A DNA stretch of 64,000 nt from a virus. The notes under the pieces are model-generated. The model was not told the origin of the DNA and did no database searches. It was given only the letters and a program-made list of their open reading frames with translations. Of this stretch, positions 3,608-54,571 are shown in pieces (positions within the stretch are counted from its first letter, which is position 1; every line of letters starts with the position of its first letter). A program made the translations under genes and the position numbers. The stretch covers positions 124,001 to 188,000 of IMG/VR virus record IMGVR_UViG_3300047548_001122, one strand, 5' to 3'.

Positions 3608-3805
3608 ATGAATATTTCACAATTTATAGATGACGTTGTAGCTGGCAATGCTTCTGCAGCAAAGGAAACCTTAAATGATATCCTTTCAGCAAAAGCTTTT
3701 GAGAATATTGACAATCAGAAAAAAGAACTTGCAAAGTCTCTTTTTGGTGGTAATCAAGAAGTAGAAGTTCAAGATACCGAAGATCAACTAGAAACAGAAG
3801 AATGA
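3608..3805 (+). CDS. 67: Prohead core protein gp67-like
   Basis: This 65-residue protein has a helical N-terminal half (ISQFIDDVVAGNASAAKETL) and a very acidic tail, the same plan as T4 gp67, a small scaffold component cut up by the prohead protease. It is in the gp67 position right after the portal gene. GGAG at 3598-3601 supports the ATG at 3608 over the upstream in-frame ATG at 3596. The stop overlaps the next start (ATGA), which suggests coupled translation. The assignment rests on position and composition more than on sequence identity. Confidence 0.7.
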   Translation: MNISQFIDDVVAGNASAAKETLNDILSAKAFENIDNQKKELAKSLFGGNQEVEVQDTEDQLETEE

Positions 3806-4617
3806 AATCTTTAAACGAGTTTAAAAACTTAGTAGAAGAAGAAAAATCAGACTATTCAAAGTTTGATATTTTAGTTCGAGCTGGATTAGCAAATAAAGCT
3901 CAACTACAAAGAATACATCGCATTTTAGATAAGATGCAGGATGATCGTCCTCAGTTTAATAATGCCGATAAAATGATTCTTCAAAATTTGTTTAATAAAA
4001 TGGTAGATTTAATTACCACCAATAAACAAATATTTCAAAGAACAAGGCAAGCTGTTCGTGAAGAAACTGAAGAAATTAATGAAAGTGTAATAGATACTTC
4101 TGATTATAAAATAGGTCCTTCTGGTAGAAAAATAAGAGCTCATCGTATTAAAGTTGGTGATACGGAAGAAAAAGAAGAAGTAAAAGAAGAAACTATTATT
4201 GAAGCAGATTCTAAATCTTCAACAGAGGATCCTCCTGTTGTGTTGATGTTGAAAAGAAAAGCAATTCGAATTTATCCAGATAAAACAAAAGTTGCACTTT
4301 ACTACAGTTCTAAATTAGATAAACACTTTACTGTACCTTATGGTGCAGGTGTTGAATCTGCAATACAGTCTGAAGAAGTTCAATTAGAAGAAGCTGTTAT
4401 GGATTCATTACATAAAATTGTTGCGGGTAAACAAGCACAGTCGGTTAAATTTGCCAATGGTCAAACAAGAAAAGTTGACCACTATACAGCGTCAGCTATT
4501 ACGCAAGTACACAAAGCTGTGAATGATGAAAATAAAAAGAAGTTAGCAGATATGGTACATAAATCACCTGCACACTTTGAAAAAGTTGCAGCATTTGCCT
4601 TCAGTAAAACAAAATGA
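3802..4617 (+). CDS. Modular prohead-associated protein with capsid-targeting-like leader
   Basis: The function of this 271-residue protein is unknown. It begins MKSLNEFKNLVEEE, resembling the capsid-targeting leader of T4 internal proteins. Sequences fitting the gp21 protease rule (L/I-x-E) follow at residues 10-12 (LVE), 92-94 (INE before S), 132-134 (IIE before A) and 195-197 (LEE before A), mostly in acidic linkers. They split the protein into a helical module (18-85), a short basic module, a beta-rich module (about 145-182, including KVALYYSSKL and FTVPYG) and a C-terminal helical module (200-271). It lies among scaffold and protease genes. I infer a processed inner-head protein. It overlaps both neighbours by four bases. 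Confidence 0.6.
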   Translation: MKSLNEFKNLVEEEKSDYSKFDILVRAGLANKAQLQRIHRILDKMQDDRPQFNNADKMILQNLFNKMVDLITTNKQIFQRTRQAVREETEEINESVIDTSDYKIGPSGRKIRAHRIKVGDTEEKEEVKEETIIEADSKSSTEDPPVVLMLKRKAIRIYPDKTKVALYYSSKLDKHFTVPYGAGVESAIQSEEVQLEEAVMDSLHKIVAGKQAQSVKFANGQTRKVDHYTASAITQVHKAVNDENKKKLADMVHKSPAHFEKVAAFAFSKTK

Positions 4618-5060
4618 AATTAATAAATTTAATTTTAGAAGGCAAAGTTATTGAAGCAAGAGAGTGTTTCGAAAACTTAATGCTTCAAAAAATAGAAGAA
4701 AAATTAAAAGAAGAAAAAGAAACAATTAAAGAATTGTTTTTTGAAGATGAAGATTTAGTCGAAGCTGTAAAAAGAAGAAACCCAAACATTATACGTATGG
4801 GTAGAGTACAAAAGATTCGCCGCAGAATACGCAGAAATGCTAAAGGTAAAATTGTTGTACAAAAAAATGTAAAACGTTCTGGTATCAAAGGTTACAGAAT
4901 GTCTGGCACTACTGTAAAAAGAATACCAGCTGTAGAAAGAATTAGAAAAGCACGTTTATTAAAACGTTCTTGGAAAACAACTAGAAGAGCTAAATTACGC
5001 CGTACGTTATTGAAAAGAAAAATGTCAATGCGTAGGCGTGCATCGATAGGATTAAGATAA
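4614..5060 (+). CDS. 68: Prohead core protein gp68-like
   Basis: The first 50 residues (MKLINLILEGKVIEARECFE, then a charged helix) match the pattern of T4-like gp67/gp68 scaffold proteins. The remaining 100 residues are extremely basic, with many R-R and K-R pairs, ending RMRR-like before IGLR. T4 gp68 shapes the prohead core and is removed or cut by gp21. ILE before G at residues 7-9 and LVE before A near residue 50 fit the protease rule; the latter would release the basic tail as a separate, possibly DNA-binding, peptide. That last step is inference. Confidence 0.65.
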   Translation: MKLINLILEGKVIEARECFENLMLQKIEEKLKEEKETIKELFFEDEDLVEAVKRRNPNIIRMGRVQKIRRRIRRNAKGKIVVQKNVKRSGIKGYRMSGTTVKRIPAVERIRKARLLKRSWKTTRRAKLRRTLLKRKMSMRRRASIGLR

Positions 5061-5434: not shown

Positions 5435-6085
5435 ATGAAATTAATTAGAGAAGCCGTAGAAAATGTAAAGTACATCAGTGAAGCCACAGAAAATGGCAAG
5501 AAAAAACTTTACATTGAAGGTACATTTTTAGTTGGTAATGCTGTTAATAAAAATAACAGAATGTATATGATGGATACTCTCCGTAATGAAGTCGAAAGAT
5601 ATAATCAAGACTTTATATCTCAAAATAGAGCTCTAGGAGAATTAGGCCATCCAGATACACCAACAATAAACTTAGAGAGAGTTAGTCATAAGATCGTTTC
5701 TCTTGTAGAAGATGGCAATACTTTTTATGGTAAAGCTTTGATCTTAGATACTCCTTACGGACAAATAGTAAAAAACTTTATTGAAAACGATGTTACTTGT
5801 GGTGTTTCTTCGAGAGCTTTAGGTTCATTAGTTCAAACCAAAGAAGGTTACAATTTGGTTCAAGATGATCTTAGACTTGCAACGGCAGCTGATATTGTTG
5901 CAGACCCTTCTGCGCCAGGTGCTTTCGTCAACGGTATTATGGAAAATAAAGAGTGGATGTTTGTTGATGGAAAGTTCATGGAAAAACAATTTGATGAAGC
6001 CAAAAAACAGATAAAACAAGCCTCAAGAAAAGATATCGAAAAAGTTGCATTAAAACTATTTGAAAATTATATTAGAAAACTTTAA
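5435..6085 (+). CDS. 21: Prohead core protease gp21
   Basis: The 216-residue product matches the T4 gp21 serine protease family. GELGHPDTP places the catalytic histidine at residue 72 and CGVSSRALG the catalytic serine at 125 or 126; YIEGTFLVGNAVNKNNRMY is the conserved N-terminal strand region. The enzyme is assembled into the prohead core, activates itself and cleaves scaffold, capsid and internal proteins after (L/I)-x-E. Its own N-terminus contains ISE before A at residues 14-16, a fitting self-cleavage site. It precedes gp22 and gp23 as in T4. Its presence and the LTE site in gp23 are the basis for the polyprotein interpretation elsewhere in the window. Confidence 0.95.
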   Translation: MKLIREAVENVKYISEATENGKKKLYIEGTFLVGNAVNKNNRMYMMDTLRNEVERYNQDFISQNRALGELGHPDTPTINLERVSHKIVSLVEDGNTFYGKALILDTPYGQIVKNFIENDVTCGVSSRALGSLVQTKEGYNLVQDDLRLATAADIVADPSAPGAFVNGIMENKEWMFVDGKFMEKQFDEAKKQIKQASRKDIEKVALKLFENYIRKL

Positions 6086-6088
6086 ATT

Positions 6089-6096
6089 TATAAATA
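6089..6096 (+). promoter_or_regulatory. T4-type late promoter upstream of gp22
   Basis: A perfect TATAAATA lies between the gp21 stop and the gp22 start, 23 bases before the ATG and followed by a good AGGAG ribosome site. This agrees with strong late expression of scaffold and capsid genes through gp55. Confidence 0.75.
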
Positions 6097-6118: not shown

Positions 6119-7195
6119 ATGGCATCAAACAAACTTATGGAAGCGGCTGCTGAAATTCTTGCGAATAGCAAGAAATCTGCATCAGCTATGCCTCCACAAA
6201 AATTAGATGGTGAAGTGCAAGACCTTGGCGGTCCTACTCCACAGAACGCTAAACCAGATGATAATTCACATAAAATTCATGCTGGTGAAAAAGCGCCTGA
6301 CAATTCTGCAAAGAATAAGAGTACGATTTCTACTAAGCCTTCTGACGCTTCCCCAGATACTCAAAACAAAGCTGGTAAAGCTATGAAAGAGGAAGAAGAA
6401 GTTTCTCAAGATGAAGTTATTGTTGAAGATTCTGAAGAAGAAGTAGTAAGCCTCAAAGAAAAAGTAAAAGAAGATATCAACGCATTATTTGCTGACGATG
6501 AAACTATTTCCGAGGACTTCAAATCTAAAGCAACCACAATTTTTGAAGCTCGTGTCTTAGATCGCGTTTCACAAATTGAAGAAGAAATGGAAGTTAAGTA
6601 TGCAGGTATGTTAGAAGAAGCTGTTGATTCTATCAAAGCAGACTTAACAGAAAAGGTAGATGATTACCTTAACTACGTAGTTGAACAGTGGATGGAAGAA
6701 AATCAAATTGCTATCCAATCTGGCCTACGTTCAGAAATTACTGAAGAATTCATTGTTGGTTTACGTAACCTATTTGCTGAACATTATATTGATGTTCCAG
6801 AAGATAAGGTTGATTTGGTTGACGAACTTGCTGGTAAAGTTGAAGAACTTGAAGATCAGTTAGACGAAGAAATCAAAACTAACATTGAATACAGAAAAGC
6901 AATTCTTGAATCTGTAAAAAGAGAAACAGTTTATGAAGTTTGTAAGGGACTTACCGAAACTCAAGTTGAAAAAATGAAATCACTCGCAGAGAGTGTAGAT
7001 TTTTCCACAGAGGAAGAATTAGTAGAAAAACTTGAGACAATTCGTGAAAACTATTTCCCATCAAATTTCAAAAAAGCTGATGAGACTCAATTACACGAGC
7101 AAGTAACTGACGATGCAGATGAAAAGAAACAAAAGGCATCTTTTGATCCAATCATCAATGCTGTCGTTCAATCGATTTCTAAAACAAAAATTTAA
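6119..7195 (+). CDS. 22: Prohead core scaffold protein gp22
   Basis: The 358-residue protein is acidic, almost free of Cys and largely helical. It has a disordered P/D/K-rich N-terminus (residues 20-90) followed by long coiled-coil-like helices (100-300), as in T4 gp22, the main scaffold of the prohead. Several (L/I)-x-E sites occur (for example IVE, LHE), as expected because gp22 is degraded to peptides by gp21 at maturation. It lies just upstream of the major capsid gene and has its own perfect late promoter and AAGGAG ribosome site. Confidence 0.92.
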   Translation: MASNKLMEAAAEILANSKKSASAMPPQKLDGEVQDLGGPTPQNAKPDDNSHKIHAGEKAPDNSAKNKSTISTKPSDASPDTQNKAGKAMKEEEEVSQDEVIVEDSEEEVVSLKEKVKEDINALFADDETISEDFKSKATTIFEARVLDRVSQIEEEMEVKYAGMLEEAVDSIKADLTEKVDDYLNYVVEQWMEENQIAIQSGLRSEITEEFIVGLRNLFAEHYIDVPEDKVDLVDELAGKVEELEDQLDEEIKTNIEYRKAILESVKRETVYEVCKGLTETQVEKMKSLAESVDFSTEEELVEKLETIRENYFPSNFKKADETQLHEQVTDDADEKKQKASFDPIINAVVQSISKTKI

Positions 7196-7213: not shown

Positions 7214-8554
7214 ATGTATTTAACGGAAGACCTACAAAAGAAATGGGAAGCAGTGTTGGATCACCCAGCTCTACCTGCTATTAAAGACCCATATCGTAAA
7301 GCAGTTACCGCTCTTGTTCTTGAGAACCAAGCACAAGAAATGGTAAAAGCTGGCGGCAACGTACAGCAGCTTACAGAAGCAACACCAACTAACGCAGCTG
7401 GTACAGGTGGTTTCGGTGGCGCCGCTACTGCAACTGGTCCTGTTGCTGGTTTCGACCCAATCCTAATCAGTTTGGTTCGTCGTTCATTACCTAACCTTAT
7501 TGCTTATGATATCTGCGGCGTTCAGCCAATGACTGGTCCTACTGGACTTATCTTCGCAATGAGAACTATGTATGGTACTAACCGTGTTCCAGGTTCTGGC
7601 ACTGAAGCTTTCTACAACGAAGCAAACAGCGCATGGACTGGTACAGGTTCACACGATGCTATTTCTCTTGCTGCTAATACAGCATTAGGTAATGGTAACG
7701 TATTTACAAGCGGTATGGCAACTGGTTCTGCTCTTGCAACAGCTTCTGCTGAAGATTTAACTTTTAACGAAATGGGTTTCTCAATCGAGAAAGTATCTGT
7801 TACTGCTAAGACCCGTGCTCTAAAAGCAGAATACACAATGGAATTAGCACAAGACTTGAAAGCAGTTCATGGTCTTGACGCTGAAACCGAATTAGCAAAT
7901 ATTCTTTCAACAGAAATTCTTGCTGAAATCAACCGTGAAGTTGTTCGTACAGTTTACGCAACTGCTAAGGTTGGCGCTCAAGTTGGTACAACTACTGCTG
8001 GTACTTTTGACCTTGACACCGATTCTAACGGTCGTTGGATGGTTGAAAAGATCAAAGGTCTTGCTTTCCAAGTTGAACGTGAAGCTAACACCATTGCTAA
8101 GACAACTCGTCGTGGCAAAGGTAACATCATGATCTGCTCATCAGATGTTGCTTCAGCTCTTGCAATGGCTGGTATTCTTGACTACAACTCAGCTCTACAA
8201 GGTCAAGTTAATCTAACCGTTGACGATACTGGTAATACTTACGCAGGTACTATCTTCGGTCGTATCAAAGTTTACATCGATCCATATTTCCCAACCGGCG
8301 CAACTTCTGAGTTTGCAGTTGTTGGTTATAAGGGTGCTAACGCTTATGACGCAGGTCTATTCTACTGCCCATACGTTCCTCTACAAATGGTTCGTGCTGT
8401 TGACACTGGTAACTTCCAGCCAAAGATTGGCTTCAAGACTCGTTACGGTCTAGTTGCTAACCCATTCGCTGAAGGTGCTACACAAGGTTCTGGTGCTCTA
8501 ACTGCTAAGACTAACTTGTACTATCGTGCATTTAAGATAGCGAATCTAATGTGA
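7214..8554 (+). CDS. 23: Major capsid protein gp23
   Basis: This 446-residue protein is the HK97-fold major capsid protein of T4-like phages. Diagnostic segments include GFDPILISLVRRSLPNLIAY, DICGVQPMTGPTGLIFAMR, GMATGSALATASAEDLTFNE and AFKIANLM near the end. QQLTE before A56 is the probable gp21 cleavage site that removes the N-terminal delta domain during head maturation (T4 is cut at a similar place). The codon choice here is richer in C-ending and G-ending codons than in neighbouring genes, as expected for a very highly expressed gene. A strong terminator follows. Confidence 0.98.
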   Translation: MYLTEDLQKKWEAVLDHPALPAIKDPYRKAVTALVLENQAQEMVKAGGNVQQLTEATPTNAAGTGGFGGAATATGPVAGFDPILISLVRRSLPNLIAYDICGVQPMTGPTGLIFAMRTMYGTNRVPGSGTEAFYNEANSAWTGTGSHDAISLAANTALGNGNVFTSGMATGSALATASAEDLTFNEMGFSIEKVSVTAKTRALKAEYTMELAQDLKAVHGLDAETELANILSTEILAEINREVVRTVYATAKVGAQVGTTTAGTFDLDTDSNGRWMVEKIKGLAFQVEREANTIAKTTRRGKGNIMICSSDVASALAMAGILDYNSALQGQVNLTVDDTGNTYAGTIFGRIKVYIDPYFPTGATSEFAVVGYKGANAYDAGLFYCPYVPLQMVRAVDTGNFQPKIGFKTRYGLVANPFAEGATQGSGALTAKTNLYYRAFKIANLM

Positions 8555-8663: not shown

Positions 8664-9251
8664 ATGATAACTCTATACATAAAAACTCACAAAAAGACAG
8701 GTCTTAAATATTTTGGAAAAACTACAAAAAAAGACCCACACAAATATACTGGATCAGGTAAATACTGGTTAAGACATTTAAAAACTCATGGTAATGATGT
8801 TTATACCGAAATAGTAGGAACATTTGAAAGTTTAAAAGAATGTACAGAATTTGCAATAAATTTTTCTAGACTACACAATATAGTCGAATCTACTGAATGG
8901 GCAAATCTTAGAATGGAAAATGGAACTGACGGTGCTCCTGTAGGAAATTGTTTTTCTACTGAAACAATTAAAAAAATGAGTGAATCTAAAAAAGGAAAAA
9001 GACCTAGAGAATATTATGTAGAGATTGCTAAGAAAAATGTTGGAAGAAAACAAACAGATTATCAAAAACAAAGAGCAAGAGAAACTATGGAGTCAGCGTG
9101 GGTTGTCACTTCACCAAATGGTGTATCGATGAACATTGTTAATTTAACTAAATTTTGTCGTGAAAATAATTTAGATCAAGGAAATATGGTCAAAGTATCT
9201 AAAGGAATAATAAAAAAACACAAAGGATGGACTTGTTATAAAGTCTCCTAA
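8664..9251 (+). CDS. Putative GIY-YIG-type homing endonuclease
   Basis: The 195-residue product has YIKTHKKTGLKYFGKTT, which fits the GIY-YIG-like core of phage freestanding homing endonucleases, then YTGSGKYWLRHLKTHGN and ESTEWANL. A NUMOD3-like stretch (SESKKGKRP, near residue 110) and a C-terminal repeat (SPNGVSMNIVNLTKFCREN, GNMVKVSKGIIKKHKGW) typical of intron-encoded nuclease DNA-binding modules follow. It is inserted between gp23 and gp3. It is a paralogue of the gene at 1291 but keeps the YFG motif, so it is more likely active. Such enzymes cut a cognate site in relatives lacking the gene, so their own gene is copied in. Confidence 0.75.
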   Translation: MITLYIKTHKKTGLKYFGKTTKKDPHKYTGSGKYWLRHLKTHGNDVYTEIVGTFESLKECTEFAINFSRLHNIVESTEWANLRMENGTDGAPVGNCFSTETIKKMSESKKGKRPREYYVEIAKKNVGRKQTDYQKQRARETMESAWVVTSPNGVSMNIVNLTKFCRENNLDQGNMVKVSKGIIKKHKGWTCYKVS

Positions 9252-39319: not shown

Positions 39320-40549
39320 ATGAAATTTTTAGACTTTTTAGTAGAAGCCAAAAATGAAGGCGCAAATCTACACCTAGAACATCTAGAAGATAATATATTT
39401 AATTTTGGTGTAAATGGTACTCGACAATCAATTGATTTTTTAAGATCATTAAGAGATATGTTAGCAGGTCATTCACAATCAAAAGTAAATATTACAACAA
39501 AATGGGATGGAGCTCCAGCTGTTATATGTGGAATAAATCCTGAAAACGGAAAGTTTTTTGTTGGAACAAAATCTGTTTTCAACAAAGATGGTAAATTAAA
39601 TTACACCGATGATGATATTGATAAGAATCATCCTGGTGGGGGATTAAATGAGAAATTAAAAATAGCATTGGCCTTTTTACCAAAACTTGGCATCAAAGGT
39701 ATATTACAAGGTGATTTGTTATTTACCAAAGGTGATATACAATCAGAAACAATTGACGGACAAAAATATATAAAGTTTCAACCAAATACTATTGTGTATG
39801 CGGTGCCAACCGATTCAGTTATGGCTAAAAAAATGTTAGCCTCTCAAATGGGAATAGTTTTTCATACTTCTTATTCAGGAAGAACGATAGATACATTGAA
39901 AGCCTCCTTCAATATTGACATTGGAAATTTAACACAAACTAAAGACGTTTGGTTCCGAGATGCTTCTTTTGTTGATGCGTCTGGTACTGCAACATTCACC
40001 GATAAAGAAACTCAAGCAATAACCTCTCTATTATCTCAAGCAGGTAGAGTTTTTCAAACCATAAATCCTGTCGTGTTAAATAGAATATCCTCTGGAATAT
40101 TTAAAGAACAAATTAAGACATTCAATAATACAAAGATTAGATCAGGACAAAAAATAACAAATACTGGCCAACATGTTTCAGAATTAATTAAATATATTGA
40201 AGATAAACTAAACAAAGAAATACTTGTTGCAAAAAAAGAAGATACAAAGAAGAAAAGAATTGCCGAAAAGAATGAAGTGATGAGGTTCTATAGAGGAAGT
40301 GCCAATCAATTAAAATCTGTTTTTGATTTGATGAACTTAATAGTTGATGCTAAGTTAATGATAATAAGAAAATTGGAATCAATCAAATCTTCAGTAGATA
40401 CCTTTGTTAGAACAGAAGATGGTTATAGAGTTACTGGTCCAGAAGGGTTTGTGGCAGTAGATAGAATAAGTGGTGGTGCATTGAAGTTAGTTGATCGACT
40501 AGAATTTAGTCAGACCAACTTTAATGCCGCAAAAAATTGGAGCAAATAA
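39320..40549 (+). CDS. Ligase-type nucleotidyltransferase (DUF6267-like) with capsid-targeting-like leader
   Basis: The 409-residue protein begins MKFLDFLVEA, which fits the T4 internal-protein leader with a gp21 site (LVE before A10). Residues 61-64 (KWDG, in TTKWDGAPAV) match motif I of the covalent nucleotidyltransferase superfamily (DNA/RNA ligases, capping enzymes); FFVGTKS, LQGDLLF (129-135) and YIKFQPNTIVY fit later motifs. The C-terminal 150 residues are Lys-rich and helical. It could seal or modify nucleic acid after being injected with the DNA; that is inference. Its substrate is unknown. Confidence 0.65.
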   Translation: MKFLDFLVEAKNEGANLHLEHLEDNIFNFGVNGTRQSIDFLRSLRDMLAGHSQSKVNITTKWDGAPAVICGINPENGKFFVGTKSVFNKDGKLNYTDDDIDKNHPGGGLNEKLKIALAFLPKLGIKGILQGDLLFTKGDIQSETIDGQKYIKFQPNTIVYAVPTDSVMAKKMLASQMGIVFHTSYSGRTIDTLKASFNIDIGNLTQTKDVWFRDASFVDASGTATFTDKETQAITSLLSQAGRVFQTINPVVLNRISSGIFKEQIKTFNNTKIRSGQKITNTGQHVSELIKYIEDKLNKEILVAKKEDTKKKRIAEKNEVMRFYRGSANQLKSVFDLMNLIVDAKLMIIRKLESIKSSVDTFVRTEDGYRVTGPEGFVAVDRISGGALKLVDRLEFSQTNFNAAKNWSK

Positions 40550-46671: not shown

Positions 46672-47126
46672 TTTCACATAGAGCTAATTTAAACGGTCCA
46701 GACCCATCAATCGAAAATAAACCTGAATCAATTGTTCACGCTATCGATCAGGGATTTTCGGTTGAGGTTGATCTTCGAATGAAAGATCAAAAACTATATT
46801 TTGGACATGATGAAGCTCAATATGAAACTGATATTAATTTTTTAAAGAAGTACAAACAATATCTATGGATTCATTGTAAAGAAATGGAAACCATGGAGTT
46901 TTGTCTTGAACAGGCTCTACACTGTTTCTGGCATAACGATGATGATTATACACTGACAAATTACAGATATGTCTGGGCATACCCCGGAAAAGAACCTGTC
47001 GGCAAACTAACGATAATGGTGATGCCAGAAAGGCACTGGAGTCCAGAAGAAACCCTATCAAAAAAACCATTTGGAGTATGCACAGACTACCCTTATGCGT
47101 ATCAAGATATTATAAATAAGAGATAA
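46662..47126 (+). CDS. Glycerophosphodiester phosphodiesterase-like protein
   Basis: The 154-residue protein begins FIISHRANLNGPDPSIENKP and continues VEVDLRMKDQKLYFGHDEAQ, matching the GDPD catalytic pattern H6-R, E18-N, E35-x-D37 and H49. It is shorter than bacterial GDPD (about 240), so it may be a minimal TIM-barrel version. It could act on glycerophospho-linked surface groups or lipids. It ends the glycan operon and overlaps the methyltransferase by ten bases. Confidence 0.65.
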   Translation: MFIISHRANLNGPDPSIENKPESIVHAIDQGFSVEVDLRMKDQKLYFGHDEAQYETDINFLKKYKQYLWIHCKEMETMEFCLEQALHCFWHNDDDYTLTNYRYVWAYPGKEPVGKLTIMVMPERHWSPEETLSKKPFGVCTDYPYAYQDIINKR

Positions 47127-47151: not shown

Positions 47152-49896
47152 ATGAAATTTAAAGACTTTCTAACAGAAAAGAAAGAAGTACATGCCGTAA
47201 TGGCCTTTGGGAGAATGAATCCCATAACTTCTGGCCACGAAAAATTAGTCAACGCTGTCAAAAAAGTTGCTGCCAAAGTTGGCGGTTCACATATTATCGC
47301 ACTATCACATTCTCAAGACCCAAAGAAAAATCCTCTCACAGCCGCACAAAAAGTCAAATACGCCAAAGGTGCATTTCCTGGCACAAATTTTGTTGCTGCA
47401 TCTAAAGACGCACCTACATTCTTTGAACACGCCGAAAAACTATACAAACAAGGTGTAACACATTTACATATGATTGGTGGTTCTGATCGCGTAGAAGAAT
47501 ATAACAAATTACTTCACAAATATAATGGCACACATAAAGGTGCTCGTTTCAATTTTAAAACCATCGAAGTACATTCTGCTGGTGAACGTGATCCTGATGC
47601 AGATGGCGTCGAAGGAATTTCTGCAAGTAAGATGCGTGAGGCAGCAAGTAAAGGAGACTTTAATACTTTTAAGAAAGGTGCTCCGTCAACAATGTCAGTC
47701 GATCTAATGAAACAAATGTATAAAGATGTACGCAAAGGTATGAACCTTAAAGAAAGTATTAATGAAGAATTTGAAGAACTTTTGATTGAAGGTGTTCACG
47801 ACAAAGGTATTTTTAAAGCTGTATTTTTAGCAGGTGGTCCAGGTTCAGGTAAAGATTATGTATTGAGTAATACACTTGATGGTCATGGTTTAACTGAAAT
47901 CAATTCTGATAAGGCTTTAGAATTTTTAATGGACAAAAAAGGTCTCGATAAAAGAATGCCTGCAAGTGAAACGGAAGCTAGAGATAAAGTTAGAGCTAAA
48001 GCAAAAAATGTTACAGAGCTTCGTCAAAGACTTGCATTACAAGGAAGAAATGGACTAATCATTAATGGTACTGGTGATGATGTTGAAAAAGTAACAAGAA
48101 TCAAATCTAAGTTGGAAGAATTAGGTTACGACACTTCAATGATTTTAGTGAATACGAATGATGAAGTATCTGCTCAAAGAAATATTGAACGTGGTCAAAG
48201 AGGTGGTCGCACAGTACCAGAAACCATTCGTAAAGAAAAATGGGACAATGTTCAAAATGCTCGTACTGAATATGCAAAACTTTTTTCTAATAATTATATG
48301 GAGTTTGATAACTCCGAAGATTTGAGACAAGCTCCTCCTGATGTTGTTAAAAGTAAAAAAATGGAGATGATGCAACTGTTTAAAAACGTACAACAGTTTG
48401 TTGCACAACCTCCTCAATCACCTGCTGCACAAGAGTGGGTAGCAAATGAATTAGAACAAAAAGATACTCTTAAACCACCAAAAAATGGTGTTGAACAAGT
48501 TGTACCACATGGTTCGAGTGCAGCAGAAGAAGCCAGAAAATTAGGATTACAATATTATGGTTTCGGTAGATATGGTAAAAACGGAAAAACTACACACCGT
48601 TCCATTCATGATAAACTTGTACAAGTTACTGATAAAAAACCAGAACAACCTAAACTACCTACACCTGGTTCTTCACCAATTTCAAACAAAAAAAATGTTT
48701 CAGAAGAAATTAATATTGATGAAGAATTTAACGAAATGCTTGATTCTTTAGATGAAGATTTACGTAAATGGTTTGACCCAAAACATCCAGAAGGTGGTTG
48801 GAAAAGAATTAACTCTAAAGGTGAAGCTATAGGTCCTTGCGCTCGTGAACCAGGTGAACCAAAACCAAAATGCATGTCAAACGAAAAGAGAGCTAAGTTG
48901 AGTAAACAAGAAAGAGCTTCTGCTGTTGCTGCAAAACGCAAACATGATCCTATTGCAGATAGATCGGGTAAAGGTGGTAAACCAGTAAACGTTTCCAATT
49001 TTGGAAAAGGTAAATTGTCTGAATCTGTAACAGTTTCAATTACTGGTGATACTGTTGATGAAGTTAAAGATTTCTTCAACACAATGGGATCAAATTTAAA
49101 TACAACTACAGAACAATATGCATTATCAGATTCCAAAAAAGAATTGATAACTCTGGGTAAATTTACTCAACCATTTGGTGAGAAAATGGAAAATACCACC
49201 ATTACAAATGATATGGTTGAAAATATGCTTGAACAGAAAGAACCTAATTTACTCAAAGACAAGAGTGGTAAAGTTAGGGTATTCATGTTAAGATCGGTAG
49301 CGGCTAAAGAAGCTCATACAAGTCAAGGTACAGTTTTAAAGTATAAAAACGGTTATGTCGTTAAACTAAAAGAGGAGATTGAAGATGTTGAAGTTTATAA
49401 AGGAACTATTCGGAATTGGATTGAAGAATCCAGAAAAACATGGATTGGAGGGAGCAACCAGAGCACCCAACGAGGACTTCTCACAGAGAGTGGAACAATA
49501 TCAAACGGAAGTTCCGAAGGTAGAGGAACCGAAAGTAGAAGAATTGAAAGTGGAGAAACCAAAGAAGAAACAACCATCCAAGAAGCCTGCGAAAATAACT
49601 CCACAACCGCAACCAAAAAAATCACCCTCGCAGAAATCAAACAGAGGCAGAAAGCCAAACACCAAAAACAAATCGACGAAATAGATCGAGGTATTGAACC
49701 TGGCATATCAATGGCTGGTGCTGGCGAAGGCATCGGCCGTGATATGGGTGAAAAAATTAAAAAAAGGTCACATAAAGTTACTGTTGTTGAATTAACTGGT
49801 GATGAAACAACAGCATCTATTGGTGACCAAAAAGAAGATGAGTTAAAGAAAAAAGGTATCTCACTAACTACATTTAAAAAGAGAAACTACATATGA
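47152..49896 (+). CDS. Modular packaged-type precursor: NMNAT-like domain, P-loop kinase, DUF-type modules
   Basis: The 914-residue protein begins MKFKDFLTEKKE, a capsid-targeting-like leader with LTE at 7-9. Residues 13-195 form an NMNAT/cytidylyltransferase-like domain (GRMNPITSGHEKL, MIGGSDR, ISASKMR). After LIE before G214, a P-loop kinase domain (AGGPGSGKD, 227-235) covers about 215-420. IDE and LDE at 522-535 precede a small KWFDPKHPEGGWK module with three Cys; LSE before S625 precedes another module. The end (LAEIKQRQKAKHQKQIDEID onward) is a separate conserved tail. The domain order recalls NadR. Residues 745-844 overlap a second gene in another frame and are low-complexity S/T/E-rich. 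Confidence 0.7.
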   Translation: MKFKDFLTEKKEVHAVMAFGRMNPITSGHEKLVNAVKKVAAKVGGSHIIALSHSQDPKKNPLTAAQKVKYAKGAFPGTNFVAASKDAPTFFEHAEKLYKQGVTHLHMIGGSDRVEEYNKLLHKYNGTHKGARFNFKTIEVHSAGERDPDADGVEGISASKMREAASKGDFNTFKKGAPSTMSVDLMKQMYKDVRKGMNLKESINEEFEELLIEGVHDKGIFKAVFLAGGPGSGKDYVLSNTLDGHGLTEINSDKALEFLMDKKGLDKRMPASETEARDKVRAKAKNVTELRQRLALQGRNGLIINGTGDDVEKVTRIKSKLEELGYDTSMILVNTNDEVSAQRNIERGQRGGRTVPETIRKEKWDNVQNARTEYAKLFSNNYMEFDNSEDLRQAPPDVVKSKKMEMMQLFKNVQQFVAQPPQSPAAQEWVANELEQKDTLKPPKNGVEQVVPHGSSAAEEARKLGLQYYGFGRYGKNGKTTHRSIHDKLVQVTDKKPEQPKLPTPGSSPISNKKNVSEEINIDEEFNEMLDSLDEDLRKWFDPKHPEGGWKRINSKGEAIGPCAREPGEPKPKCMSNEKRAKLSKQERASAVAAKRKHDPIADRSGKGGKPVNVSNFGKGKLSESVTVSITGDTVDEVKDFFNTMGSNLNTTTEQYALSDSKKELITLGKFTQPFGEKMENTTITNDMVENMLEQKEPNLLKDKSGKVRVFMLRSVAAKEAHTSQGTVLKYKNGYVVKLKEEIEDVEVYKGTIRNWIEESRKTWIGGSNQSTQRGLLTESGTISNGSSEGRGTESRRIESGETKEETTIQEACENNSTTATKKITLAEIKQRQKAKHQKQIDEIDRGIEPGISMAGAGEGIGRDMGEKIKKRSHKVTVVELTGDETTASIGDQKEDELKKKGISLTTFKKRNYI
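49385..49684 (+). CDS. Nested out-of-frame gene: 99-residue Lys/Glu/Pro-rich protein
   Basis: This frame lies wholly inside the 914-residue gene. It has its own GAGGAG (49372-49377) seven bases before the ATG. The product has an amphipathic N-terminus (MLKFIKELFGIGLKNPEKHG) and repeats of the type P-K-V-E-E (VPKVEEPKVEELKVEKPKKK), then a basic K/P/Q/S-rich tail. Internal repeats of this kind are unlikely to arise by chance in a wrong frame, and the host-frame sequence here is featureless. I think both frames are translated. Function is unknown; the basic tail suggests nucleic acid binding. Confidence 0.65.
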   Translation: MLKFIKELFGIGLKNPEKHGLEGATRAPNEDFSQRVEQYQTEVPKVEEPKVEELKVEKPKKKQPSKKPAKITPQPQPKKSPSQKSNRGRKPNTKNKSTK

Positions 49897-50420
49897 AGTC
49901 ATTTACTCAATTCATAAACGAAGAAGTTGAAATTCTGGATGAAATGCCTGGTGCCAATATGGACACCAGAGCGGTTCATCAACATCTGAAAAAACAAGGA
50001 TGGAAATTAACCAGAAGTTCTGGCAATCATGATGTGTTTACTCATCCAGATGCTAAACATCACATTCCCGTTCCTCGTCACAAACAATTGAAAGCTCCTT
50101 TAGTTCGTGGTATCTTAAAACAAGCTAAAGTAAATGAAGAAGTTGAATTGGATGAAACTGCTGCATGGCAACGTAAAGAAGGTAAAAATCCTGAAGGTGG
50201 ATTAAACCGTAAAGGTATCGAATCGTATCGCCGTGAAAATCCTGGTTCTAAACTATCGATGGCTGTAACTACTCCTCCATCAAAACTAAAACCAGGTTCA
50301 AAGGCTGCAAAGAGAAGAAAATCCTTTTGTGCAAGAATGGGTGGTATGCCTGGTCCAATGAAGGATGAAAAAGGTCGTCCAACAAGAAAAGCATTATCTT
50401 TGCGTAAATGGAACTGCTAA
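49893..50420 (+). CDS. Packaged-type precursor: leader, HicA-like toxin domain, DUF6321-like module
   Basis: The 175-residue protein starts MKSFTQFINEEVE, very like the T4 internal protein leader MKTYQEFIAEA. gp21-type sites are INE at 8-10 and LDE at 15-17. Residues 24-80 match HicA mRNA interferases: LKKQGWKLTRSSGNHDVFTH with the catalytic-position H46, then HIPVPRHK and LVRGILKQA. After VELDE before T89 comes AWQRKEGKNPEGGLNRKG and a C-rich basic end (RRKSFCARMGGM, SLRKWNC), the DUF6321-like module. No HicB antitoxin is nearby. I infer that the toxin domain is freed in the prohead and injected. Confidence 0.7.
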   Translation: MKSFTQFINEEVEILDEMPGANMDTRAVHQHLKKQGWKLTRSSGNHDVFTHPDAKHHIPVPRHKQLKAPLVRGILKQAKVNEEVELDETAAWQRKEGKNPEGGLNRKGIESYRRENPGSKLSMAVTTPPSKLKPGSKAAKRRKSFCARMGGMPGPMKDEKGRPTRKALSLRKWNC

Positions 50421-51719
50421 ATGGCACAGTTTAGAACCGACAAAAACATTATCGATTCGGGTCAAGTATTTACTCGATATGAGATAATGATGTTATCTGA
50501 TAGGCTGACACCATCTGGTACAGCCACAGATGCGTTCGGTCGTTTACGTGTTGCTGAACCACATACTCTTTTTGATTCACAACATCAAGACGTTGAAAAT
50601 GATAAATGGGATACACTCATTACAGGTTCGGGCACCAAAACACATTTACCAAATGAATCTGTAATTGCTTTAGAAATTGGTACTGCAAATAACGATGGTA
50701 TTATTCGTGAAACACTAAGAACAATGCCATACCAACCAGGCAAATCATTGTTGATTATGAGCACATTTGCTATGGGACAACCAAAAGCGAACGTTGTTCA
50801 GAGAGTAGGATATTATGGAGCAAATAACGGAATTTATTTTGAAAACGATTCTGGAAATAACTATGTTGTATTAAGAAGTTCTGTTACAGGAAATGTTGTA
50901 GAAACTAGAGTTGCACAAACAAATTGGAATGTGGATAAATTTGATGGTACGGGATATTCGAGTCAGGGAACAGGACCAGAACACGTTGATGGAATAAATG
51001 TAAACAAATCAAATCTTTTTTGGATTGATATTGAATGGCTAGGCGTTGGTGATGTTCGATGTGGTTTTTTGAATGACGGCCTATTAAAAACTGCACACAT
51101 ATTTCATAACGACAATAAAAACAATACAACTTATATGCGTAGTGCAATTCAACCATTGCGATATGAAATATTTAACAAAGGTGTTACAACATCAAATACG
51201 CTGATGCGTCAAATTTGTTCTACAGTCATATCCGAAGGTGGTTATACACAAATTAATCAATCAAGGTCAGCATCAAATCCTTTGGCTGGTAAAAACTTAA
51301 CTGTTAGTATTAATAACCCAATGGTAAGCCTTCGGTTAAAAAATGGTAGAACAAATGCTGTCGTTGTACCTGTTGCAATTGATATGTATGGATTACAAGC
51401 AACAGCATTTAAATATAGAGTGTATGAGAATGTCACAAGTTTAACCGGTCCATCATGGGTTACAACCGACGCCGCAAGTGCAGTTGAGTATGATATATCG
51501 GCAACGGCAATGACTGGTGGAACTTTACTTAAAGAAGGTATTTTCAAAGGATTAGAAGTTGCAAAAGAAGTTAATTTGTTACAACTATTAGATGGTGTTA
51601 TACAACTAACAAGAAAAATAAATGCAAACACTGGCGACATATTCACGGTTGCAATAGAACCAACAACAAACAACGATGATGCTATCGTAGCATTATCATG
51701 GCAAGAACACATTAATTAA
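50421..51719 (+). CDS. Virion structural protein, conserved in aquatic phages
   Basis: The 432-residue protein contains DAFGRLRVAEPHTLFDSQHQ, MPYQPGKSLLIMSTFAMGQ, VQRVGYYGANNGIYFEND and IEWLGVGDVRCGFLNDG, a signature I recognise from virion structural proteins of unknown location in many aquatic phages. It is beta-rich, has only a few Cys, and shows no signal peptide or membrane segment. Unlike its neighbours it lacks acidic L-x-E linkers, so it is likely a mature structural subunit (tail or head surface). It starts one base after the preceding stop. Confidence 0.7.
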   Translation: MAQFRTDKNIIDSGQVFTRYEIMMLSDRLTPSGTATDAFGRLRVAEPHTLFDSQHQDVENDKWDTLITGSGTKTHLPNESVIALEIGTANNDGIIRETLRTMPYQPGKSLLIMSTFAMGQPKANVVQRVGYYGANNGIYFENDSGNNYVVLRSSVTGNVVETRVAQTNWNVDKFDGTGYSSQGTGPEHVDGINVNKSNLFWIDIEWLGVGDVRCGFLNDGLLKTAHIFHNDNKNNTTYMRSAIQPLRYEIFNKGVTTSNTLMRQICSTVISEGGYTQINQSRSASNPLAGKNLTVSINNPMVSLRLKNGRTNAVVVPVAIDMYGLQATAFKYRVYENVTSLTGPSWVTTDAASAVEYDISATAMTGGTLLKEGIFKGLEVAKEVNLLQLLDGVIQLTRKINANTGDIFTVAIEPTTNNDDAIVALSWQEHIN

Positions 51720-51734
51720 AAATAGGAGACTCAA

Positions 51735-53141
51735 ATGTTTCAAGACAAACTAACAAGAGAAATTGCTGCAGCTGCTGCACAAATCAAAACAGAACCACCA
51801 AAGAATGAAGTTAATTCTGAGTCTGTTGAGGGTGCAGTCGTTTCTGTTATGACGAATGAAGAACTAAAAGGCAATCAACACAAGATTGATGCTAACAAAA
51901 ACGGCAAAGTTGATGCACATGACTTTAAACTTCTTCGTGCCAAGAAAGGTAAAACGGTAGAAGAAGGCATTAAAGGTGCTGGTATAGGTGCTGCTGTAGG
52001 TTCTGTTGCTGGTGGACCGATTGGTGCAGCAGTTGGTGGTGCTTTGGGGCATGTAGCAGGTGAAGTTCTATCAAGTGCTAAGAATAAAACAAAAGCTATG
52101 TATCGTATTGCAAAAGGTCCTTCGATGGCCGACAGCAAAATAAAGAAAGAAGAAGTTGAAGAACTCGATGAATTGTTTGGAAAAGGTAAATTACCAGCAA
52201 TTGCAGCATATCACAAAGAAAAAGGTGCTGAAGCTAAAGGTAAGATGGAAACAATTAGAAGTGGTAACACTAAACTTCCTGTTCCAAAATCTACATCTGC
52301 TAAAATCTTTTCTAAAGATGCTGAAGCTAAATATCATTCAACTCAGGAGAAAAGAGCAAAATCTTTGATGAAAAAAGAAGAAGTTGAATCCGTTGAAGAG
52401 GGATTTGGTGATCTAGTTAAAGGTATTAAACGTGTCGTTGCCGGTAAAAAGAGTCCTAGTGCCGTAAGAGATGCACACTTAGCAAAATCTGCTTTTAGTA
52501 CAGATCCGAAAGTTAAAGAGCGTGAAGGTCGCCGTTACGATAAAGTGGATAACTTCATGATGAAAAAAGAAGAAACGGAATTGGATGAAGCCTTTCCAAC
52601 TGTAGCTGATGCTAGAAAACGTATGGCTGCAAAAGAAAGTGGTTTCGAGAAAAAGAAAATTTCTACTGGTACAGTTTACTCACGTAAGTATAAGGCAGAA
52701 CCAGAAGAGAATGATGAAGCGCCAAAGAAAAAGGCCAAGACCATGAAAGAAATGTTGAGTATCTATTCAGCAGGTGGCGCCGAAGCTTTGGTAGAAAATC
52801 TCATGATCGAAGAACCATCACAAGATGAATATAAAAAGGAAGTTGAAACTGCTCAGGCAAAAGCTGACGGTAAAATTCGTAACGATAAAGGTATAGCTAA
52901 AGCAGCATCACAGGGTGTAAAGATGGAAGAAGTTGAAATTGAAGTTCTTGATGCAGATGAAATCAATGGAGTTCAGATTGACAATATTGAAGAGCGCCAC
53001 ATGACTGATGCTGAAATGGATAAACGTGAAGAAATCGTTAAGTCAATGAAAAAAGGTATTCAAGGTTTCAAAGATCGTTATGGCGATAAAGCAAAAAATG
53101 TAATGTATGCTACTGCAACCAAATTGTCCAAAAAGGATTAA
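51735..53141 (+). CDS. Modular precursor with EF-hand and glycine zipper
   Basis: The 468-residue protein contains an EF-hand-like loop at 52-63 (DANKNGKVDAHD) and then a glycine zipper at about 78-110 (GIKGAGIGAAVGSVAGG...), a membrane-inserting type of helix. Acidic linkers KKEEVEELDE before L147 and KKEETELDE before A286 fit gp21 cleavage; a related KKEEVESVEE at 213-222 lacks L/I. Modules between are small, basic and helical. The end (GFKDRYGDKAKNVMYATATK) is a tail module that recurs in aquatic T4-like phages. I infer an injected inner-virion protein, perhaps helping DNA cross the inner membrane. Confidence 0.6.
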   Translation: MFQDKLTREIAAAAAQIKTEPPKNEVNSESVEGAVVSVMTNEELKGNQHKIDANKNGKVDAHDFKLLRAKKGKTVEEGIKGAGIGAAVGSVAGGPIGAAVGGALGHVAGEVLSSAKNKTKAMYRIAKGPSMADSKIKKEEVEELDELFGKGKLPAIAAYHKEKGAEAKGKMETIRSGNTKLPVPKSTSAKIFSKDAEAKYHSTQEKRAKSLMKKEEVESVEEGFGDLVKGIKRVVAGKKSPSAVRDAHLAKSAFSTDPKVKEREGRRYDKVDNFMMKKEETELDEAFPTVADARKRMAAKESGFEKKKISTGTVYSRKYKAEPEENDEAPKKKAKTMKEMLSIYSAGGAEALVENLMIEEPSQDEYKKEVETAQAKADGKIRNDKGIAKAASQGVKMEEVEIEVLDADEINGVQIDNIEERHMTDAEMDKREEIVKSMKKGIQGFKDRYGDKAKNVMYATATKLSKKD

Positions 53142-53143
53142 AC

Positions 53144-54571
53144 ATGAAGAAGATGTCTGACGTTTTCAAATCCATTCGTTTTGCCAAAATGGACCCAAAA
53201 CACGATAAGCCCGAAATTGGTGGTTCGAAAGATGACGAGGAACATTATACTGTTGGTGAAAAGGAATATGAACAACAGGTAAAACATGTAAAAAAGCGTG
53301 CTATGCAAGAAGAAAAGAAAGACAAATATGATGAAGGTGAATATGACCGAGAAGGCGATATGGCTAAATCTGATCTTCGTTCTATCATTGCAAATGCAAA
53401 AAGATTGCATGATATGATCGAAGATTCGGCTAACCTTCCTGAATGGGTGCAGTCTAAAATTACTGTTGCTGAAGATTATATTTCTACAGTTGCTAATTAT
53501 ATGACATCAGAAATGAGTGAAGGGGTATCTGATAAGTTGTACAAATCTCATCAAGATTTGCGTAAGAAGAGTGGGTTACCTCATCCCGATTACTACAAAG
53601 CATTAGGTAAATCTTATGACATTGAAGATGATAAAGAACGCCTTACACATCAATCTGAATTAAAGAAAAAATATGGTGTGAAAGAAGAGGTTGAACTTGA
53701 AGAGTCCTCTAAATTTGCAAAAATTTTTGATAAGAGAGTCAAACAAAGAGAACTCAATAAATTACCTAAAGAACCAAAAGGTGAATATGAACGTAAAGTG
53801 GACAAGTATTTGAAGAAGAAATATAACAAAGAAGAAGTTGAACTTCAAGAAGGTCGTCCATCACAACGCCATCCATTAGAGGGTCATGAGTATCACAAAA
53901 AGTCTAATGAAGAATTGATTGGTATTGCTAAAGATGCACATGCGGCTGCTGAAGCAATGAAGGGTCACAGTACCAGAGCAGAAAACAAATATCGTGACCA
54001 AGCAAATGATTCTGCAACAGTACGTTATTTCCGACAAAAGAGTGGTATGCCTGACTGGTACAAAAAGAAGTATGGTCATGTCAAAGAAGGAGTAGAACTT
54101 GAAGAGGGTTTACAACAAACTCTTAGAAAAGTTGTTCCTGGTTATGCAAAGAAACAAATAAACGATAAAATGGACCGTGAAAAGTTTGGTAGAAGAGATG
54201 TGGATAAAGACGAGAATTATTATCGTTATAAAAAAGTCCTCGACAAATTAAAAAAAGAAGATGTTGAACAATTAGAAGAAAAGAATGTTCCAACTTCTCC
54301 AGAAAAATGGGCTCAAGCCAAAGCACAAGCAAAGGCCAAGTTTGACGTTTATCCTTCTGCCTATGCAAATGGTTGGGCTGCAAAGAAATATAAAGCAATG
54401 GGTGGTGGTTGGAAATCAGTCAGTGAAGAATCTATTTTAGAGTCTCGTAAGGCTGAAATTGTCAAAAAGATAGTTAAGAGTAAAAAAACTAATAGTGATG
54501 ATAAATTTGAACCTAACCCTATCATGTCGAAAGATGAAGATAGGGGCAGAGATAACATAAATAACAAGTAA
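53144..54571 (+). CDS. Modular precursor with four or five protease-type linkers
   Basis: The 475-residue protein is built of small basic modules joined by near-identical linkers: KEEVELEE before S188, KEEVELQE before G237, KEGVELEE before G322, KEDVEQLEE before K380 and ILE before S434. Modules include LPEWVQSKITVAEDYIST (about 98-115) and a C-terminal VYPSAYANGWAAKKYKAMGG (about 402-421), both of which recur in proteins of aquatic T4-like phages. The linkers fit (L/I)-x-E. The protein begins MKKMSDVFKSIRFAKM and lacks the clear leader of its neighbours. It probably yields several small peptides in the head. Confidence 0.6.
   Translation: MKKMSDVFKSIRFAKMDPKHDKPEIGGSKDDEEHYTVGEKEYEQQVKHVKKRAMQEEKKDKYDEGEYDREGDMAKSDLRSIIANAKRLHDMIEDSANLPEWVQSKITVAEDYISTVANYMTSEMSEGVSDKLYKSHQDLRKKSGLPHPDYYKALGKSYDIEDDKERLTHQSELKKKYGVKEEVELEESSKFAKIFDKRVKQRELNKLPKEPKGEYERKVDKYLKKKYNKEEVELQEGRPSQRHPLEGHEYHKKSNEELIGIAKDAHAAAEAMKGHSTRAENKYRDQANDSATVRYFRQKSGMPDWYKKKYGHVKEGVELEEGLQQTLRKVVPGYAKKQINDKMDREKFGRRDVDKDENYYRYKKVLDKLKKEDVEQLEEKNVPTSPEKWAQAKAQAKAKFDVYPSAYANGWAAKKYKAMGGGWKSVSEESILESRKAEIVKKIVKSKKTNSDDKFEPNPIMSKDEDRGRDNINNK
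54556..54563 (+). promoter_or_regulatory. Candidate late promoter before the small structural genes
   Basis: CATAAATA (seven of eight matches to TATAAATA) lies 33 bases before the ATG at 54596, with TAGGAG in between. It overlaps the end of the preceding gene. Confidence 0.45.

Follow-up and report, generated by a model that had tools for sequence, protein, structure and literature searches.

Why would a phage build large proteins from small, unrelated domains and place between them the short motif after which its prohead protease is expected to cut? The question is raised by four proteins encoded at positions 47152 to 54571 of a 64,000-nucleotide stretch of viral DNA, referred to here as the window (positions 124001-188000 of the 214,237-bp virus record IMGVR_UViG_3300047548_001122), which comes from an uncultured aquatic phage that, judging from its sequence, is T4-like. 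The T4 prohead protease gp21 cuts after (L/I)xE (PMC9026906), and a reading of the window from its sequence alone had proposed that the four proteins are polyprotein precursors with domains joined by such sites, packaged in the head, and cut during maturation. The comparative analysis reported here indicates that the proteins are, in all likelihood, head-targeted precursors of the T4 internal-head-protein type that are cut by gp21 into separate cassettes. Pfam scans identified gp20, gp21, gp22, and gp23 in the window. Its gp21, a prohead core protein serine protease (S77; 5435-6085, + strand), had already been recognized in the sequence-only reading, is recovered by PF03420 (E 2.8e-34) and phrog_207 (E 1.4e-72), has the GELGHP and GVSSR blocks in common with the gp21 of S-SM1, and is the presumed cutting enzyme. 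The major capsid protein gp23 (7214-8554, +; PF07068) has a predicted maturation site at QLTE55↓A56, with the arrow marking the predicted cut here and below, and LxE was present in the N-terminal maturation region of all 13 of the 13 gp23s from related contigs. This agrees with the rule of T4 gp21 (PMC9026906).

The protein at 47152 (914 amino acids) opens with a capsid-targeting-like N-terminus, MKFKDFLTE↓K (47152-47178, +), the homologues of which read MKFLDFLLE, MKFSDFLLE, and MKFSEFLRE. There follow an NMNAT-like/cytidylyltransferase module (residues 10-213; 47179-47790, +; phrog_3041, E 4.4e-64), a zeta/NMP-kinase-like P-loop kinase module with the stretch behind it (residues 214-524; 47791-48723, +; PF06414, E 3.1e-12 over residues 222-370), a basic DLRKWF module that begins after SLDE535↓ (residues 536-624; 48757-49023, +; phrog_12753), and a C-terminal part that is conserved in relatives and whose module boundaries are uncertain (residues 625-914; 49024-49893, +). 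The (L/I)xE joints of this protein are at E213, E524, E535, and E624, the first being the NMNAT/kinase boundary, LLIE213↓G. A search of PDB with the NMNAT profile gave no match, and the kinase profile matched NMP kinases, zeta toxin, and a polynucleotide kinase weakly. The protein at 49893 starts with the capsid-targeting peptide MKSFTQFINE↓, which matches M-x-x-F-x-x-F-(L/I)-x-E, and a second site, EVEILDE↓ (49893-49943, +); its HicA-like module (residues 18-88; 49944-50156, +; PF07927, E 3.9e-13) is followed by a DUF6321 module with an isoelectric point of 11.1 (residues 89-175; 50157-50417, +; PF19846, E 3.3e-23).

The other two proteins consist mostly of small modules that are unnamed in Pfam and PHROGs. 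The 51735 polyprotein (51735-53141, +; joints E146, E222, E285, and E420) holds an EF-hand-like/Gly-zipper module, two small basic modules, a FPTVAD module, and a MYATATK module. The 53144 polyprotein (475 amino acids; 53144-54571, +) has joints at E187, E236, E321, and E379 (KEEVELEE↓S, KEEVELQE↓G, KEGVELEE↓G, and KEDVEQLEE↓K), and of its predicted products, residues 1-187 are acidic and the other four are basic. Domains of disparate activity are found in one chain (NMNAT-like, P-loop kinase, and DLRKWF; HicA-like and DUF6321), and up to ~14 acidic (L/I)xE sites lie in one chain between unrelated domains. The residue numbers that the sequence-only reading had given for the sites in the 475- and 914-residue proteins and for LTE before A56 of gp23 were all confirmed. 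It had also described acidic linkers of a single form in all four proteins; the (L/I)xE joints are indeed there, but the 914-residue protein lacks the KEEVEL form and one joint of 51735 reads SVEE. Two features had escaped it: the N-terminal targeting peptides (MKFKDFLTE and MKSFTQFINE) and a fifth protein of like build, 271 amino acids long, encoded between gp20 and gp21 (3802-4617, +; joints E94, E134, and E197, the last reading EEVQLEE↓AVMD).

Plain counting of (L/I)xE proved to be weak evidence, as the raw density of the motif in the four proteins is ordinary. Acidic (L/I)xE sites occur at 5.4 per 1000 residues in the four proteins versus 0.99 in the other proteins of the record, and shuffling each protein gave p values of 0.001 (53144), 0.0005 (49893), and 0.022 (47152); for 51735, chance was only weakly rejected (p = 0.085). 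Given this last value and the ordinary raw density, the evidence must be carried by the position of the sites relative to module boundaries. Linkers of the type EE[VT]E..LxE were found, in the whole record, only in the 49893, 51735, and 53144 proteins and the protein at 3802-4617, with looser matches in gp22. Across the whole collection of viral contigs, the DNA pattern for KEEVELDE matched at least 120 stretches, compared to 23 and 20 for two controls made of the same residues in shuffled order. Among the matches listed, two or more linkers were present in 47 of the 123 linker-bearing open reading frames (ORFs) versus 0 of the 20 ORFs of the first control.

Were the joints cut by a protease, a module should have the site directly in front of it in every setting, regardless of the sequence before it. 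A set of 80 kinase loci, 76 of them distinct, was gathered from other viral contigs by the kinase body alone, with the linkers ignored. The (L/I)xE motif ends exactly one residue before the kinase in 75/76 distinct loci. Kinases fused to a preceding NMNAT-like domain have (L/I)xE↓G at the boundary in 39/39 cases. Of those that start a gene of their own, behind a T4-type capsid-targeting peptide, 36/37 have the site at the boundary; 9-31 residues precede the kinase there, for example MKTFRELKE↓ or MKTYQDLQE↓. Among 67 clean full-length flanks, Glu occupies P1 in 67 and Leu or Ile occupies P3 in 66, while the commonest residue at P2 occurs in 12; positions farther upstream than P3 are much less conserved. 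By this sequence comparison, the LLIE213↓G of the window is the fused form of the site that elsewhere closes a targeting peptide.

The other modules follow the same pattern. For modules taken from relatives of 53144, the site is at -1 in 191 of 260 instances and in at most 13 at any other offset; the proportion is 38/38 for KNVPTSP, 21/21 for the HicA-like module, 43/48 for MYATATK, and 46/55 for GRPSQRH. In a wider set of 15 families, drawn from contigs that had been selected by linker and counted without the selecting octamer, the site was found at -1 in 66 of 152 instances, at 0 in 20, at -2 in 10, and mostly in 0-7 at other offsets. The claim that these proteins are precursors of unrelated modules joined by gp21-type sites is thus strongly supported by comparative boundary evidence.

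Module order and context differ among relatives. GRPSQRH precedes KNVPTSP in the 53144 protein of the window, and the order is reversed in contig L027 at 83-88% identity. In one phage, GRPSQRH comes directly after a targeting peptide (MKSFKSYITE↓GRPSQRH), and in another it is preceded by an acidic linker (KEEVELQE↓GRPSQRH); likewise, the kinase module is found after a targeting peptide (MKTFAELQE↓GVYD) or after a linker (LLIE↓GVHD). DUF6267 and NMNAT are encoded by separate genes in the window and are fused in three contigs (L345, L349, and L359). Gene order at the locus is conserved, running from the gp41 side through DUF6267, NMNAT, the polyproteins, and the structural protein to gp61 primase and nrdA. 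Caulobacter phage Cr30 strings together many cassettes with a different linker, SE(E/N)(M/L)(I/L)NE↓, in which (L/I)xE is mostly kept. Cultured relatives that have both gp21 and a cassette polyprotein include Cr30 (AGS80949.1, 682 residues) and the Synechococcus/Prochlorococcus phages S-SCSM1 (QFG06349.2), S-CREM2 (WNL51079.1), and P-TIM68 (AIR93496.1). In the 1431-residue polyprotein of contig L049 (1939-6231, - strand), a likely intein near residues 873-1027 (PF14890, below the cut-off, E 6e-4) interrupts a KFDVYP module, which resumes after it.

Are the precursors sent to the head? In the 10-residue targeting peptide of T4 IPIII, residues 4 and 7 serve targeting and residues 8 and 10 serve cutting (PMC9026906). 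The corresponding form (aromatic or aliphatic at 4 and 7, Leu or Ile at 8, and Glu at 10) is matched in full by the 49893 protein (MKSFTQFINE), and the N-termini of the proteins at 47152 and 39320 have it one residue shorter. The latter is a DUF6267 protein with a KxDG motif and the capsid-targeting N-terminus MKFLDFLVE↓A (39320-40549, +; PF19782, E 1.6e-113). Of 84 N-termini of this family, gathered by homology alone, 54 match the 10-mer or 9-mer form of the T4 capsid-targeting sequence (CTS) and 9 more do so within the first 22 residues, compared to 7.3% of other ORFs. One subgroup (L216, L219, L222, L230, L232, and L239) begins MFSFKGFxTQ or MFSFKGFITK, keeping the targeting-type residues and losing the P1 Glu, a natural situation in which targeting could be told apart from cutting. 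The KxDG motif (TKWDGAPAV) is invariant in four divergent members, as in covalent nucleotidyltransferases and ligases, and together with the targeting peptide it suggests that DUF6267 may be a head-packaged enzyme; sequence searches found no solved relative, so a role as an RNA ligase remains an idea. Many polyproteins of the 51735 type (L078, L088, L117, and the window) begin with MF-x-K-x-x-(I/V)-S-x-S-M-I-D-A-V or similar, which is possibly a second head-targeting signal.

Published virion mass spectrometry (MS) of the homologous loci of S-SCSM1, S-CREM2, and S-SM1, together with the T4-type targeting N-termini, supports the proposed packaging in the head. In the S-SCSM1 record, genes 89-93, 95, and 97 are marked as virion proteins and gene 94 is not. 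Gene 91 encodes a virion NMNAT that starts MKSFLQFLKE↓A, the gene 92 product, also a virion protein, holds NKEEVELDE↓RTRY, and the gene 89 virion protein begins MDSKTFNSLSE↓A. For S-CREM2, virion MS detected gp154, gp155, gp156, and gp160. The S-CREM2 NMNAT, detected in virions, begins MKNFSSFLTE↓A, and gp160 reads as a chain of cassettes with relatives, by eye, of the DLRKWF and KFDVYPSAYANG modules of the window. The virion-detected gp156 (L409:8013-8726) has a nucleotidyltransferase domain (PF01909) and is encoded near the NMNAT gene. The proteins detected in S-SM1 virions include the cytidylyltransferase T4-GC190, which begins MKKFSAFLNE↓A. Homologues of the NMNAT module of 47152 are thus on record in purified cyanophage virions (PMC3037559, PMC9602691, and PMC10665884).

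The same cleavage rule would hold if the proteins were sacrificial prohead core or scaffold proteins like T4 gp22, gp67, and gp68, the gp21 fragments of which would mostly leave the head and would not be cargo. The gene at 3802 occupies the interval from gp20 to gp21, a place taken by core genes in T4, the gp22 scaffold of the window (6119-7195, +; PF25623, E 3.7e-64) itself has 16 (L/I)xE sites, and most T4 core fragments do leave the head (PMC9026906). We nevertheless consider this explanation unlikely, since several members of the locus are found in purified mature virions of relatives, enzymes and a HicA-like domain would be odd in a scaffold, and the modules are shuffled and differ from one relative to another. 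No match to a known core-protein family (gp22/67/68) was found for the 47152, 49893, 51735, and 53144 proteins in Pfam and PHROGs.

Could the joints instead be flexible acidic spacers that hold domains together and neutralize basic modules, with the proteins acting uncut? The linkers are acidic, and in the AlphaFold model of 53144 they fall in low-confidence segments: residues 182-187, 226-248, 311-324, and 369-379, among others, are predicted with low confidence and comprise all four joints, and the 380-420 module is modeled confidently. Apart from other phage polyproteins, a fold search with this low-confidence model retrieved only small unnamed proteins, which matched the 380-420 module. 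A spacer would not need a fixed Glu and a Leu or Ile flush with the next module with P2 left free; moreover, the targeting peptide in front of stand-alone copies ends in the identical site, and the spacer of Cr30 differs but keeps (L/I)xE. We therefore regard uncut spacers as very improbable.

It is very improbable, in our view, that the linker DNA serves chiefly as a handle for recombination, by which modules spread, with any cutting incidental. Near-identical linkers within one gene and the clear shuffling of modules would fit such a role, and homologous recombination at the linkers may help the shuffling. In the kinase set, however, nine codons are used for the P3 Leu or Ile and two for the P1 Glu, with no conservation in the remainder of the linker, so the constraint acts on the protein and not on the DNA. 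The idea that these are injected polyvalent proteins, each with an embedded peptidase that would process it in cis, has hardly any claim to belief, because, despite multiple domains, virion association, and enzymatic domains like those of the class described in PMC5512222, Pfam scans found no peptidase domain in the four window proteins or seven relatives, and the sites match the rule of the trans-acting gp21.

Several observations weigh against head-targeted precursors cut by gp21. A strict site at -1 is missing from 69 of the 260 module boundaries, the EF-hand-like module has a site at its own boundary in 0/31 instances, the SVEE joint of 51735 contains no (L/I)xE, and the P1′ residue is often Lys or Arg. 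The 51735 and 53144 proteins lack a classical targeting N-terminus, and the AlphaFold model of 53144 has a low overall confidence (mean predicted local distance difference test score, 55). The published virion MS tables, in the parts available, give detection at the level of proteins with no peptide positions, and the authors of two of the virion papers caution that proteins may be carried over in CsCl preparations. Four matches to the T4-type late promoter core, TATAAATA, occur in the window, all on the + strand, one at 47111-47118 (~34 bp upstream of 47152) and one at 6089 just upstream of gp22; the total falls short of the chance expectation of 7.7, which leaves their placement as the one suggestive feature.

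The co-occurrence of linkers with gp21, a check suggested in the sequence-only reading, agrees with cutting by gp21, but both the common T4-like ancestry of the contigs and their fragmentary state confound it. The protease is encoded in 9/9 complete named relatives checked, in 5/5 contigs of at least 100 kb selected by linker and 9/10 selected by module, and, among contigs of at least 25 kb, in 18/37 linker contigs versus 2/14 scrambled-motif controls. As the linker contigs are T4-like as a group, this result cannot separate cause from common descent, and one 124.6-kb and one 83.8-kb contig, possibly fragments, show no gp21; both points belong with those above.

On balance, we propose that the polyproteins would be made late in infection and that two of the four would enter the prohead core by means of a T4-type N-terminal capsid-targeting sequence. 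During maturation, gp21 would cleave each precursor at its module joints, after (L/I)xE. A single gene would in this way give rise to several small proteins, most of them basic, and enzymes (NMNAT-like, P-loop kinase, HicA-like, DUF6321, and others). The mature cassettes would stay in the head with the DNA, and at least some would likely enter the next host, by analogy with the T4 internal proteins (IPs) and Alt. Behind a targeting peptide or inside a longer precursor, a cassette would acquire the same mature N-terminus, and because either arrangement would give this result, cassettes could be freely shuffled. These steps differ in strength. Packaging in the head is probable, with support from published virion MS in relatives; we infer cutting at the joints from strong comparative evidence and infer that the pieces are retained in the head. 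Entry of the cassettes into the host with the DNA is a plausible hypothesis, and as effectors they might serve host takeover or anti-defense, as the example of the T4 IPs and Alt would suggest. The NMNAT-like enzyme and kinase in one precursor could fit a role in NAD (nicotinamide adenine dinucleotide) or RNA metabolism at the start of infection, and the HicA-like domain could fit an action on host RNA.

Other genes of the window adjoin those discussed. A virion structural protein lies within the polyprotein gene block (50421-51719, +; phrog_1645, head and packaging, E 1.9e-102), and a small basic prohead core protein with a gp68-like N-terminus is encoded at 4614-5060 (+; phrog_1064, E 6.5e-5). 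A 101-residue ORF (KMLKFIKELFGIGLKNPEKHGLEGATRAP...; 49379-49684, +) lies in another frame inside the 3′ part of the 914-residue ORF. It is found at 65-87% identity in L245, L246, L073, L244, and L164 and weakly in L177 and L067, and the main frame is conserved too; from this conservation, it is likely an overlapping dual-coding gene. Two related-looking ORFs at 1291-1935 (MAIYLLVKEHAYTGLKYLCKH...) and 8664-9251 (MITLYIKTHKKTGLKYFGKT...), which resemble GIY-YIG homing endonucleases by eye, adjoin gp20 and gp23.

Few viruses in water are as common as the T4-like phages, and a function is known for only a minority of the proteins that they encode. If the rule of cutting after (L/I)xE at the joints is true, many large hypothetical proteins become defined sets of small head-packaged proteins, the presence of NMNAT-like enzymes in cyanophage particles would be accounted for, and exact mature N-termini are predicted that can be checked by virion MS. 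We also put forward, tentatively and with slightly more doubt than belief, that the T4 superfamily possesses a modular cargo platform, in aquatic and other environments, in which any cassette flanked by (L/I)xE is packaged, cut free, and delivered with the DNA as part of a pre-made effector set, with NAD and RNA metabolism and a HicA-like domain as examples. If so, hundreds of orphan phage proteins would become readable as cassettes from their joints alone. If the pieces are injected, the system would be a natural multi-cargo protein delivery system in which each cassette is a candidate anti-defense or host-takeover protein.

No description of such linker peptides or of prohead-protease polyproteins of this kind was found in the literature searched, with subscription journals and preprints outside the search; the corresponding statement in the sequence-only reading holds for the linker system, each ingredient of which was already known. 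The concept that comes nearest is that of polyvalent proteins, which were described from phages and plasmids (Iyer et al. 2017, PMC5512222): they are multi-domain, are thought to be delivered with DNA, and have been proposed to release parts by proteolysis, with an analogy drawn to viral polyproteins. Unlike the proteins described here, they mostly carry cis-acting zincin peptidases and have no gp21-site linkers, and cyanophages go unmentioned in the portion of that text searched. Pfam scans found no zincin peptidase, ArdC-N, or other typical polyvalent-protein domain in the four window proteins or their relatives. In the giant phages phiKZ, 201phi2-1, and SPN3US, many head proteins are likewise cut after a short Glu-ending motif by a gp21 relative (PMC9026906 and PMC10052503), and large sets of proteins are ejected; however, 13 of the 14 mapped cuts in SPN3US remove N-terminal propeptides, and chains of distinct cassettes are not described there. 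The virion NMNAT of cyanophages (PMC3037559, PMC9602691, and PMC10665884) is homologous to the first module of 47152, but the available portions of those papers draw no link to a targeting peptide, gp21, or neighboring polyproteins.

The closest parallels are in T4 itself. T4 gp22, gp67, and gp68 are also cut by gp21 into several fragments, and their gene position is like that of the protein at 3802, but they form a scaffold, whereas the window encodes exchangeable cassettes with enzyme folds, some of them virion-associated. T4 IPI, IPII, IPIII, and Alt likewise start with a targeting peptide, ~10 residues long, that closes with (L/I)xE, with gp21 present (PMC9026906), and the targeting and cutting positions of IPIII recur in the DUF6267 family represented in the window. 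Each IP is one small protein with a single cut, made at its N-terminus (Alt is cut at both ends), in contrast to the chains of unrelated domains found here. Thus, the CTS with gp21 cutting, the virion-associated NMNAT, and injected multidomain polyvalent proteins are known ingredients, and the cassette polyproteins are real, widespread, and common to many T4-like relatives; what goes beyond the T4 internal-protein pathway is the polyprotein form with its shuffled cassettes.

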